From contig JAGOOV010000003.1 in assembly GCA_017992295.1 (NCBI GenBank), positions 1-36,988 of the forward strand: a stretch of 36,988 nucleotides of DNA. The letters are read 5' to 3'. The stretch comes from Candidatus Saccharimonadota bacterium. Its GTDB lineage: Bacteria > Patescibacteriota > Saccharimonadia > Saccharimonadales > CAIOMD01. A program made the translations under genes and the position numbers. Below the pieces are notes generated by a model. The model did no database searches. It had not been told where the DNA came from and was given only the letters and a program-made list of their open reading frames with translations. Below, piece after piece: positions 16,057 through 20,629 of the stretch (the stretch's first letter is position 1; each line of letters begins with the position of its first letter).

Positions 16057-16329
16057 ATGAGTCACGTCAAAGCAGGCGGCACATCTAAAAACACCAAAGA
16101 CAGCCCGGGCCAGCGTTTGGGTGTTAAGCGCCATAGTGGGCAAAGAGTACGTACCGGAGAAGTTTTAGTACGCCAAGTGGGAAGAACCAAAGTGCCCGGA
16201 AACGGCACTTTTATGAGTCGGAATTTCACTATTCATGCTGCAAAAGACGGAGAGGTGGCTTTTCAAACACGCAAAATAAGACGCTACAGTGGCAAAACCG
16301 AACGCCGCACCGAAGTTGTCGTCGAATAA
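16057..16329 (+). CDS. rpmA: 50S ribosomal protein bL27
   Basis: The 90-residue protein is bL27. The basic N-terminal arm (SHVKAGGTSKNTKDSPGQRL) reaches toward the peptidyl transferase centre, and the core VKRHSGQRVRTGEVLVRQ and the VPGNG segment are characteristic. The N-terminus is not the cleaved form found in Firmicutes. AAGGA about seven bases before ATG is a plausible ribosome site. The usual partner gene for bL21 (rplU) is not adjacent. A strong terminator follows 17 bases after the stop. Confidence 0.96.
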   Translation: MSHVKAGGTSKNTKDSPGQRLGVKRHSGQRVRTGEVLVRQVGRTKVPGNGTFMSRNFTIHAAKDGEVAFQTRKIRRYSGKTERRTEVVVE

Positions 16330-16346
16330 TAAACCTTGCCAACATT

Positions 16347-16376
16347 AAAAACACTGCACGATTTTGCAGTGTTTTT
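16347..16376 (+). terminator. Intrinsic terminator after rpmA
   Basis: A perfect 12-base stem (16347-16358 with 16365-16376) encloses a 6-base loop. The stem ends in A-runs and T-runs on both strands, so it should stop transcription from rpmA and also from the convergent small gene on the minus strand. Confidence 0.9.
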
Positions 16377-16387
16377 ATTAATTGGAG

Positions 16388-16717
16388 TTACTGGCTATCT
16401 TGTCTGTACAGTGGTCGTTCTTGCTGACCGTATTCTTGGGTTGGACCAACAATCACCTGCTTTTCTGCGGGTTTTTCTTTTAGCTTTAAGCGCATCGCAC
16501 TGCTTGCCGGTTTGGGGTCATCTGGATCACCATTGAATTTGATTATTGGCTCAGTATCACCGTTGCTCGGTTTTTTATTATCAAATGGCGGAATCATCAA
16601 ATCTAGGTATTTATCGAACTTTATCGGTAAAATTCTATTTTCGTACTTGTCGCCTTCGTCAGTTGATTTTAGATGATCGTCATTGTTTTTAGGTATATCT
16701 GTTATGTTTTCACTCAT
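16388..16717 (-). CDS. Unknown acidic, probably disordered small protein
   Basis: The 109-residue protein is hydrophilic and rich in Asp, Glu, Lys, Pro and Asn, with little predicted order and no membrane segment or motif. I do not recognise it. It starts at ATG 16715-16717 with a G-rich GGGGGC a few bases upstream and a TATAAT at 16730-16735. It ends 11 bases from the bidirectional terminator. It shares the minus strand with the broken helical-repeat gene, separated by a glycosyltransferase fragment, and may belong to the same acquired segment. The reading could be spurious, but start, promoter and terminator are well placed. Confidence 0.5.
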   Translation of the reverse strand: MSENITDIPKNNDDHLKSTDEGDKYENRILPIKFDKYLDLMIPPFDNKKPSNGDTEPIIKFNGDPDDPKPASSAMRLKLKEKPAEKQVIVGPTQEYGQQERPLYRQDSQ

Positions 16718-16729
16718 TTTTCGCCCCCG

Positions 16730-16735
16730 ATTATA
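16730..16735 (-). promoter_or_regulatory. -10 element of the small acidic gene
   Basis: A perfect TATAAT on the minus strand ends 12 bases before the ATG at 16717. No good -35 was found at 16-18 bases, so this is a single-element call. Confidence 0.3.
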
Positions 16736-16763
16736 TTTAGATTGTAGATTTTAAGACTATGAG

Positions 16764-16897
16764 TCTTGTTTACCGTAATCGCTATCATTGGTATATTTTT
16801 GTTTTATCATACTGCAAAAGAATTAAGTAAACAGTTAAAAGTTAAAAGCTTAGAGCTAAACGTTAGAATTTCTACCCTGCTGTTTATTTTTGTCAGC
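16764..16897 (+). pseudogene. 134-bp fragment homologous to the downstream glycosyltransferase gene
   Basis: These 134 bases match 18541-18674, inside the glycosyltransferase gene, with six differences and no gaps. All six are transitions. Read in the glycosyltransferase frame, five are synonymous and one is Ser to Asn, and the frame stays open. That pattern means the fragment diverged while part of a working gene, so it derives from a paralogue or from another strain's copy, not from a recent local duplication. Both edges are sharp. The antisense strand supplies the last 13 residues and stop codon of the helical-repeat gene. Confidence 0.92.
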
Positions 16898-18140
16898 CAT
16901 AATATAAGCTGTTACTAAATTAACTACTGAAGAGAATTCGTTTATTTTTATTTCCCATTTTTCCATAAGCTTATCAATAGCTTGCTTTGTATACGTATCG
17001 TCTCCAATCTCAATAGCAAGCATACCCATATCGCTGATATCTTGTTCGTCATTACAATTGGAAAGATTATTTTTTAGATATTCCCTTGCACTCTCACTGT
17101 CGCCTAATTTAACAGCAATCATGCAAGCCGATAATTCGTCTCCGATTTCCTGTAAATCAACCATAGTTTTTTTGGCTGTTTTTTTATCACCAGCCTTTGA
17201 TGCAAGTAAACCATATTTCCGGCCGTAAAAACCCCACAACTGCTCTTTAGGTATTTGGCATTCTGCAATACAAGCTTTTGCTTCCTCTACGCAACCTGCT
17301 TCAACTAAAATTTCAATTTTTTGTAATTTGATATGAATCACTTTTCCCTCAATATAGTGATCGGAAGCCCACCGTTCAGTTGCTTCTCTTTCGAGGGTTG
17401 TTTTTAATTGATGGTCAAGTACTCTAATTACCGCATCTACTCCACTAAAACCCATTCTGGCAGCTATCAGACCGACTCGATATTTGTCATATTTGTCATA
17501 ATCATCATATAAAATTTCATTTTTTTTATGTTTTCTAGAAATAACAGCGTCTATTGCTTTTTGGGCTATATCAAAATATCCAGTGTTTGATGCCAGTTCT
17601 GCAGCCTCGCGTAAATGGCCCGATCTTATCATTTGATTTAATTCTGTCTCAGCGTATTCGTCGTGATTAATTGCTCTTGCTACAACTTCGTGCCAAGGTT
17701 GACTCAACCATTCAGTATTAAAGGCACAGATATAATCAGTATCTTTCTTATCTAATAGAGCATCTAATACAGCAGCACTAGCCCGACCATTTTCACCTTT
17801 TTCCCTTAAACCTTCCGTAATACTTAACACGTATTCTCTTTTTTCTATAGCATCTATTTCTCTCTCTACCAATTGACTCGCAGCACCTAAAAGACTTGCT
17901 CGTGATTCTGGTGATAAGTTCTTATTAGTTAAATCATCTTGATATGGTTTTTCAATTAAGGCTAATCTGTGTGCATCTGTAGGATTAGATATTCTTTCAG
18001 GCCATAAATACCTTTTCTGCAGCCTCTTTAGCCTCTTCAATCATCCCTTCTGCTTTTCTCAATTCATATTCACCAACCTGTCTTGCGACTGATTCTCTAT
18101 GAGAGGTATCAGTTGTTTTGCTTTTTTTAGTTTTAAACAT
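16856..18140 (-). pseudogene. Helical-repeat protein gene with frameshift and replaced C-terminus
   Basis: The long open part (from about 18016 down to 16856) encodes an all-helical, TPR-like solenoid, with repeats such as LREAAELASNTGYFDIAQKA and GCVEEAKACIAECQIPKE. The real start is probably ATG 18138-18140, preceded by AAAGG and a good promoter. From there 41 codons of a charged helix (HRESVARQVGEYELRKAEG, then EEAKEAAEK) lead to a run of four A at 18013-18016, where the frame is off by one; with three A it joins the long frame at RYLWPERI. Unshifted, it stops after 47 codons at 17997. The last 13 residues (ADKNKQQGRNSNV) are antisense glycosyltransferase sequence, so the native C-terminus is lost. 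A sequencing error or +1 frameshifting could explain the first defect. Function unknown. Confidence 0.75.
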
Positions 18141-18186
18141 TATTGTAACCTTTTGTTTTTTATTTATATTTTTAAACTATGTGATG

Positions 18187-18215
18187 ATATTAGCATAGTT
18201 TTTATAAATTGTCAA
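18187..18215 (-). promoter_or_regulatory. Strong promoter of the helical-repeat gene
   Basis: Minus strand: TTGACA (18210-18215), a 17-base spacer ending in TGC (an extended -10), then TAATAT (18187-18192). The leader of about 40 bases carries AAAGG before ATG 18140. This supports 18140 as the true start. Confidence 0.65.
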
Positions 18216-18266
18216 TGTTATGATTTAGTATTTCTGGTTTTATTGAATAAAAATGGTTAAACTTAT

Positions 18267-19778
18267 ATGCAGGGCATAAGATTTAAAGTGCAAAAAGTAA
18301 GAGAGTTTTTACTAAGTCGCTGGTTTTGGTTACTAGTTGTTTTAGTATTGGTAATTTCCAGATTCAGTACCTGGTTATTTCCGTTTGATAGTGACCATTG
18401 GATTTTCTATTACATTGGCAAAAAGTGGGCTCAGGGTTCGATTTTATATGTCGATATGTGGGACCATAAATCACCGTTAATTTACGGATATAACGCTATA
18501 ATTCACAATCTACTGGGCTCAAATATATTTTTACACCGAATCTTGTTTACCGTAATCGCCATCATTGGTATATTTTTGTTTTATCATACCGCAAAAGAAT
18601 TAAGTAAACAGCTAAAGGTTAAAAGCTTAGAGCTGAGCGTTAGAATTTCTACCCTGCTGTTTATTTTTGTCAGCAATTTAGCCCAATTTACTAATAGTGG
18701 CAACAATAACGAAAATTTGGCAATACCGTTTTTGCTTGGCATGACGTGGTGTTATTTAATTTACAGGCGCAACATCACAAAATATCAAAATGCGTTGATT
18801 GCCAGCGGTATTCTTGCTGGATTCGTGTTCTTTTTTAAGGCCAATTTTGCAATTTTAATCCTGCCGATTGTGGCAGAAATCATTTACATCAACAGAAAGC
18901 GTTTTTTGAAAATTATATCTAGCCTTTGTCTGTTTGGTTTTGGCACAGTATTACAGCTTTTAATTTGGTTCGTCTACTTTGAAAAATTACATACTTTTAA
19001 ACAATTTTTTGTAGCTTCTTATGAATTTAACAGCAAGTATATCAAAGCTCTAGGCTGGGATTTAAATACTCCCGGAATACTAATTTTTATAGGGATTCTA
19101 TTATTATTACTGGCGTCTTTTGCGCCCTTTATTATTAGAGGACTTATTGGATTTGCAAAACCAGACAAACATATTAAATATTTTTTGGCGCTAATTTCTA
19201 CCAGCTCTTTGATGTTTATCATACTGGCCGGAACGTTTTACTCTCACTATTTCTTGGTAGTTATTCCCTATATGTGCCTTTTATTTGTTGCCTACTGGCA
19301 AACATTTTTTGCTAATAGACGTTATATAAAACTTTTTAGCTTATTAATCATTTTATTAATTATGTTCACCTTAAATCTAAAACTCGGAATCTATAATTTT
19401 TACAAAGGTAGCGCAGCCAGCGACCTAAAAAGCCAAAAATTGGCAGCAGAATATGTTAAACAAAAAACAAGTAAAAATGACAAGATATTTGCAAATATTT
19501 ACGGCGCAACTTTTTATAATCTAGCTAAAAGAGATTCTGGAAGTCGATTTATTAGTGCTTCCCATCCGCTAATAGACTATAAATACAGGCTTGGTTATAA
19601 TTTTAATACCAGGTTTATTGTTGACATGGAACAAGCACAAACCAAGTATGTAGTTATGTCGGCGGATAAAAATGACCTATACCGCACTCAAAATCCGGTT
19701 TTAATGCGTTATTTTCTTCATAATTATCACTTAGAAACTAGAGTTCAAGGATACGAAATTTATAGGAGAAACGAATGA
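18267..19778 (+). CDS. GT-C type membrane glycosyltransferase (GT39/GT83-like)
   Basis: The 503-residue protein has about ten or more membrane segments and a first external loop typical of GT-C enzymes: acidic residues in FPFDSDHW (38-45; D41, D43), then GSILYVDMWDHKSPL (57-71). Such enzymes take sugar from a polyprenyl-phosphate donor and transfer it outside the membrane to lipid, glycan or protein. The short C-terminal region lies outside. The ATG has no clear Shine-Dalgarno. It overlaps the GtrA gene by four bases (ATGA), and the pair probably supplies and uses a lipid-linked sugar. Part of its sequence (18541-18674) is repeated at 16764. The acceptor is unknown. Confidence 0.85.
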   Translation: MQGIRFKVQKVREFLLSRWFWLLVVLVLVISRFSTWLFPFDSDHWIFYYIGKKWAQGSILYVDMWDHKSPLIYGYNAIIHNLLGSNIFLHRILFTVIAIIGIFLFYHTAKELSKQLKVKSLELSVRISTLLFIFVSNLAQFTNSGNNNENLAIPFLLGMTWCYLIYRRNITKYQNALIASGILAGFVFFFKANFAILILPIVAEIIYINRKRFLKIISSLCLFGFGTVLQLLIWFVYFEKLHTFKQFFVASYEFNSKYIKALGWDLNTPGILIFIGILLLLLASFAPFIIRGLIGFAKPDKHIKYFLALISTSSLMFIILAGTFYSHYFLVVIPYMCLLFVAYWQTFFANRRYIKLFSLLIILLIMFTLNLKLGIYNFYKGSAASDLKSQKLAAEYVKQKTSKNDKIFANIYGATFYNLAKRDSGSRFISASHPLIDYKYRLGYNFNTRFIVDMEQAQTKYVVMSADKNDLYRTQNPVLMRYFLHNYHLETRVQGYEIYRRNE

Positions 19779-20242
19779 TTGTAACAAATATTTGGCATCG
19801 GTTTAGTGGTGTTAGGTTTGTGTTTATAGGTTTATTTAATACGTTGGTCGACTTTAGTATTTTAAATGTTTTGATATTTGCTTTTGGCTTAAACAAAATT
19901 GTCGCCAACACCATTTCTGTTTCGATAGCTATGATAATTAGTTTTTTGTTAAACAAATTTATTGTTTTTAGACACAACGAGAAAAACAACACCATCCGAT
20001 TTGTTAAGTTTATTGTCATAACTGCTTTTGGTTTATACGTACTCCAAAATGTAATAGTTTTTTTGTTCACACACCACATTGTATGGCCCGGGTTATTGGC
20101 TACTAACTTAATTCACTGGATAGGATTAAAAAGTTTTAGCGAACAATTTGTTACTATTAACTTCGCTAAAGCTCTAGCCACTGGCGTAACAATGATTTGG
20201 AACTACTTTTTGTACAAAAAATTTGTTTTTAATCAGGAGTAA
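19775..20242 (+). CDS. GtrA-family membrane protein
   Basis: The 155-residue protein has four membrane segments and the GtrA pattern: RFVFIGLFNTLVDFSILN near the start, then FLLNKFIVFRH and a closing WNYFLYKKFVF. GtrA proteins are thought to help flip polyprenyl-phosphate-linked sugars across the membrane, which fits its coupling to the GT-C enzyme. Its stop abuts the stop of the convergent receiver gene with no spacing, and no terminator is seen there. Confidence 0.9.
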   Translation: MIVTNIWHRFSGVRFVFIGLFNTLVDFSILNVLIFAFGLNKIVANTISVSIAMIISFLLNKFIVFRHNEKNNTIRFVKFIVITAFGLYVLQNVIVFLFTHHIVWPGLLATNLIHWIGLKSFSEQFVTINFAKALATGVTMIWNYFLYKKFVFNQE

Positions 20243-20629
20243 TTAGGTCGAGGAAGTAAGACTCAAGTGGTGCTTGATTCGGTCGACCACGTCTGCTATG
20301 ACAACCTGCGATTTTACCAGATATTCGTCCACCCCTAAACTTTGAGCTCGTTGTTTGTCGGTTTCTTGGCTTAATGCTGTTAGCATGATTATTTTAATAG
20401 AGGCTGTTTCTGGCGTGTTGCGTAAAATATCTAACACGTCGAAGCCACTGACTTTGGGCATCATAGCATCTAGCAAAATCAGATCCGGTTTGAATTCGAT
20501 AGCTGCTGCCAAAGCATCCTCACCATTAGGAACTCGGCGAATTGCAAACCCTTCCGCCTCCAATCTGGTTTGGTAGACACTGGCTAACCCGTCGTCGTCT
20601 TCAACTAATAATATCTTTTGTTGGTCCAT
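20243..20629 (-). CDS. Single-domain response regulator
   Basis: The 128-residue CheY-like receiver has a complete site: acidic residues E10-D11-D12, phospho-acceptor D54 in LILLDAMMP, T84 and K106. It has no output domain, so it should signal through protein contacts. No kinase gene lies beside it; the degenerate kinase-like gene at 10.4 kb has its own partner. It lies nine bases after ctpA and is probably co-transcribed. It contrasts with the pseudo-receiver at 10025, which has Glu at the equivalent site. Confidence 0.95.
   Translation of the reverse strand: MDQQKILLVEDDDGLASVYQTRLEAEGFAIRRVPNGEDALAAAIEFKPDLILLDAMMPKVSGFDVLDILRNTPETASIKIIMLTALSQETDKQRAQSLGVDEYLVKSQVVIADVVDRIKHHLSLTSST

Follow-up and report, generated by a model that had tools for sequence, protein, structure and literature searches.

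In naturally competent bacteria, new DNA can be joined to the chromosome at a non-homologous end that lies beside a homologous stretch, a process called homology-facilitated illegitimate recombination (PMC3240628, PMC2884548). Small variable segments that lie between conserved backbone genes have also been attributed largely to illegitimate recombination (PMC2884548). In the arrays of Vibrio, sequential gene replacement leaves leftovers behind, which are present as remnants of gene displacement (PMC5361080). Natural competence has been demonstrated in cultured Saccharibacteria (PMC10633639). A search for short-patch double illegitimate recombination found no description of it in the literature covered.

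The stretch of DNA analyzed here (36,988 nucleotides; "the window") is all of one contig (contig 28) of a draft Saccharibacteria genome of 691 kb in 53 contigs. It contains a membrane glycosyltransferase (GT) gene and, 1.8 kb away, a fragment of the same gene. The coordinates of these and of the surrounding features are given in Table 1.

Table 1. Features in and around the interval between rpmA and the response-regulator gene (positions in the window).
Feature	Position	Strand	Basis and remarks
rpmA (ribosomal protein L27), left border of the variable site	16057..16329	+	found in 117/119 order genomes
Palindromic hairpin with T runs on both strands	16346..16378		sequence; self-complementary match 16346-16377
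Low-complexity acidic ORF, 109 aa	16388..16717	-	probable second gene of a minus-strand operon; purine-rich site before the ATG
GT gene fragment, 134 bp, codons 92-136 of the GT	16764..16897	+	same orientation as the intact gene; 96% identity to 18541-18674
Orphan all-helical protein gene	16856..18140	-	reading frames, codon-usage scan; last 13 codons and stop lie in the GT fragment
Promoter-like site, TTGACA-17-TAATAT, TG before the second hexamer	18187..18215	-	sequence match; upstream of ATG 18140
Intact GT gene, PMT_2 (PF13231) membrane glycosyltransferase, 503 aa	18267..19778	+	Pfam match
Counterpart of the fragment within the intact GT gene	18541..18674	+	alignment to 16764-16897
GtrA-like membrane protein, 155 aa	19775..20242	+	overlaps the GT stop codon; weak NCBIfam gtrA_1 match
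Response-regulator gene, right border of the variable site	20243..20629	-	convergent with rpmA; tblastn synteny

The fragment and its counterpart align without gaps and are identical at 128 of 134 positions, with 37 bp as the longest exact run common to both. A BLAST search with the fragment against its own genome finds these two places only (E 1e-65 and 2e-57), values that exclude a chance origin of the match. There is no third copy among the 53 contigs, and no other repeat of at least 45 bp was found in the 37-kb contig. Both ends of the fragment are abrupt: the flanks outside the match agree with the donor context at 7/15 and 4/15 positions, and at neither end is there convincing microhomology to that context. 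The piece thus has the recognizable origin and the abrupt, non-homologous ends that characterize a short patch of illegitimate recombination, and the original prediction of a recombination scar beside the intact gene is supported by this unique repeat and its two abrupt ends. In homology-facilitated illegitimate recombination, one of the ends is homologous, whereas here neither end continues into homology; consequently, at least two illegitimate joins, or the insertion of a patch, are needed. As with the Vibrio remnants, the leftover sequence lies beside a newer gene and would record an earlier exchange, but it is a 134-bp piece rather than a whole gene, and the genes involved are of another kind.

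The product of the intact gene matches the PMT_2 profile with 32.5 bits, above the gathering cut-off of 26.1, and can be placed in this family. Its best relative, which is 39% identical, is encoded at an unrelated locus in another family of the same order (G137), and there are four weak ones besides; no homologue was found in the rest of the family, in GTDB contigs, in viral contigs, or in plasmids. The adjoining GtrA-like protein, whose match to gtrA_1 lies below the cut-off (E 0.005), is the probable partner of the GT.

The two copies of the repeat differ at positions 16783, 16813, 16835, 16840, 16858, and 16860 of the fragment. As had been noted from the sequence, and as the alignment agrees, all six differences are transitions, and in the GT frame five of them are silent. 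The sixth changes residue 124, which is S in the intact gene and N in the fragment; since the 39% relative has Gly at this residue, the direction of the change cannot be polarized. At all six positions the fragment carries A/T and the intact gene G/C.

It had also been proposed that the fragment diverged under selection as a real gene. In the absence of constraint, five or more synonymous differences in six have a probability of 0.035 when all transitions are treated as equal, and of 0.10 when the intact copy is allowed to change only from G/C to A/T. A simulation that allowed for transversions, for an AT bias, and for selection acting on the intact gene gave a probability of 0.05-0.10 for at most one nonsynonymous difference in six under decay in place, versus 0.38-0.74 when both lineages are constrained. 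In this simulation, which is limited to six data points and few parameter values and was picked after the data had been seen, the joint pattern (one nonsynonymous difference and A/T in the fragment at all six sites) is ~5 to 18 times as probable if the donor was constrained, although it is rare under both models. Overall, divergence under coding constraint is favored ~5- to 10-fold over decay in place by simulation, which gives moderate support to, but does not prove, a donor allele or a lost second copy. The proposal therefore stands at moderate strength, held back by the small number of differences and by the A/T pattern in one direction. In the comparison of possible donors, the genus is represented by a single genome, and the GT is absent from all other members of the family.

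On the opposite strand, the fragment supplies the end of the helical gene. The reading frames agree with the original prediction that the last 13 residues and the stop of this gene are antisense to the GT piece: the ORF from 18040 to 16856 enters the fragment for 13 codons and stops at the TAG at 16858-16856. This stop needs one of the six differences (16858); with the CAG of the intact allele, translation would end two codons further on. The join at 16897/16898 does fall on a codon boundary, as had been pointed out; however, this is a coincidence with a probability of 1/3, and it was rejected as evidence.

The other end of this ORF was placed at TTG 18040, a start that is almost certainly wrong. 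In a codon-usage scan trained on the window's other genes, one frame appears to be coding from 18140 to ~18010 and another from there to ~16870. An AAAGG site (ribosome-binding site) precedes ATG 18140, and the promoter-like site lies farther upstream. Together these signals point to ATG 18140 as the start, with TTG 18040 almost certainly an artefact of a frameshift. As assembled, the gene contains a +1 frameshift near its 5' end, between ~18055, where the downstream frame has its last stop, and 18000, where the upstream frame has its TGA; its cause may be an actual lesion or an error in the sequence, and recoding is less likely. Judged by its reading frames, both ends of the assembled gene are damaged, and, barring a sequence error behind the frameshift, the gene would now be decaying. 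A single-sequence structure model of the protein is all helix, with low confidence (pLDDT 65, pTM 0.45), and Foldseek returned weak matches to it (best E 0.007), PPR and TPR entries among them. Profile searches against Pfam, PHROGs, NCBIfam, PADLOC, and PDB gave nothing convincing and nothing above cut-off, and no homologue was found in the family, in 393 order and 380 phylum genomes, in GTDB contigs, or in viral contigs. The sole match in the homologue searches, of 13 bits and with five stops, was judged spurious.

Downstream of the helical gene lies the 109-aa ORF, which has no homologue in 385 order genomes. When the fragment is removed in silico, the helical ORF reads ...TAYIM-LIVLKSTI and then a stop, that is, it ends after 8 more codons, 20 nt from the ATG of the 109-aa ORF and with a GGGGGC site in between. 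Given this spacing, the piece resembles a short illegitimate insertion into a two-gene operon, or a replacement of part of it, although the open 8-codon continuation could be a chance product. The context is also like that of an operon, with the promoter-like site upstream of the helical gene and the hairpin after the 109-aa ORF; from its sequence, the hairpin probably terminates both rpmA and the minus-strand operon. Thus, the helical gene and the 109-aa ORF may have formed one operon before the fragment arrived.

On balance, the 134-bp piece is probably the scar of a short illegitimate recombination whose source was a GT allele ~4.5% diverged from the resident one. In such an event, a fragment of the allele would have entered the final codons of the helical gene, without clear microhomology at either end, and would have either extended or replaced the native C-terminus of that gene. 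The donor allele may have evolved as a working gene, either in another strain or as a second GT copy that was later lost. By analogy with the cultured relatives, natural competence may have been the route in this genome and may have supplied the donor DNA. What counts against this explanation is the direction of the six differences, which relaxed, AT-biased decay would also give. The A/T pattern is instead what might be expected of an intragenomic copy, made from the resident GT by replication slippage, by template switching, or from self-DNA, that diverged later as an unconstrained, AT-drifting fragment while the gene remained under purifying selection. The donor for such a copy adjoins it in the same orientation, and a hand count, which ignores transversions and the gene's nonsynonymous changes, gives a probability of 0.17 for at most one nonsynonymous difference. 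However, the fuller simulation lowers that probability and finds both this count and the joint pattern likelier with a constrained donor, and an intragenomic copy is considered unlikely.

Constrained divergence could also be explained without another strain if the fragment were the remnant of a second full-length GT, a former neighbor of the present one that was truncated on either side as the helical gene and the 109-aa ORF came in. The orientation and the adjacent position of the fragment would fit such a remnant, yet two independent truncations are then required, the helical/109-aa pair resembles an operon interrupted by the fragment, and the segment yielded no further remnant of a GT or GtrA gene; this origin seems distinctly doubtful. 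An assembly or library chimera might be suspected in a draft genome, given that the repeat lies on a single contig and that a frameshift is present in the same gene. However, an exact stretch of 37 bp is short for graph misjoins at large k, and both flanks are unique with no overlap with the donor context, so that two real joins would be needed. A simple assembly misjoin is unlikely, and a chimera of either kind is very improbable. Two further readings were rejected. The piece has neither terminal inverted repeats nor a third copy, and thus does not look like a mobile element, for which terminal inverted repeats, a target duplication, and multiple copies would be expected. Campbell-type integration at the repeat fails because crossing-over between the direct copies would delete the 5' part of the GT gene; consequently, the repeat was not left by simple integration into an intact GT.

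The scar of illegitimate recombination favored above lies within a site of variable content, bordered by the convergent rpmA and response-regulator genes. In this genome the interval is 3.9 kb and holds the 109-aa ORF, the helical gene, the GT, and the GtrA-like gene; the other family members have no homologue of any of the first three. In two of these relatives (G001 and G002), the two border genes are convergent neighbors with 55-57 bp between aligned ends, which represents an empty site, and in two others (G003 and G004) the site contains ~1.0-1.1 kb whose ORFs bear no relation to the ones in the window. The acquired segment had been placed at 16.4-18.2 kb, which is too small: given the empty junction in relatives, it comprises the whole interval (~16.38-20.24 kb), including the GtrA-like gene and the GT that had been taken as the resident reference. 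Across the order, the response regulator is seen in 19 of 31 rpmA loci, always convergent and with an interval of 0 to >1.4 kb; as 1.5 kb was fetched for each locus, it lies further off or past the contig end in the other 12. Like the small variable segments described previously (PMC2884548), this site has short gene content that varies among relatives at one fixed position; unlike that work, which concerned strains of one species, the comparison here is between genera.

The convergent junction with variable content, at 16330-20242 of the window, is also present in L008, L011, L033, L035, L038, L043, L045, L047, L049, L054, L056, and L059. When ten ORFs from the site were scanned against Pfam, one Fic and one SMODS-associated NUDIX domain were found, with nothing above cut-off in the rest. 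The Fic domain, just over the Pfam cut-off, belongs to a 401-aa ORF (L038:285-1487, plus strand). The NUDIX ORF (L033:2508-3161, minus strand; Sa_NUDIX E 6e-10) also matches PADLOC effector and RT-associated NUDIX models and is a possible defence gene. Several genomes contain a short low-complexity acidic ORF opposite rpmA; these ORFs are perhaps fast-evolving counterparts of the 109-aa ORF.

From these locus counts, in which this junction alone was compared, the junction would appear to be an order-wide hotspot. Tentatively, it can be pictured as a site of gene turnover throughout Saccharibacteria, at which orphan and sometimes defence-like genes might be swapped by DNA uptake, with the scar as the trace of one exchange between co-resident strains.

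The scar is a known and ordinary kind of event, and the variable site that surrounds it is mildly interesting. For annotation, it means that both ends given for the helical ORF are unreliable; the scar alone leaves the picture of gene function unchanged. It also preserves a legible record of illegitimate recombination in an uncultured lineage that has reduced genomes and naturally competent cultured relatives, and it drew attention to a fixed chromosomal site whose content varies across the order.
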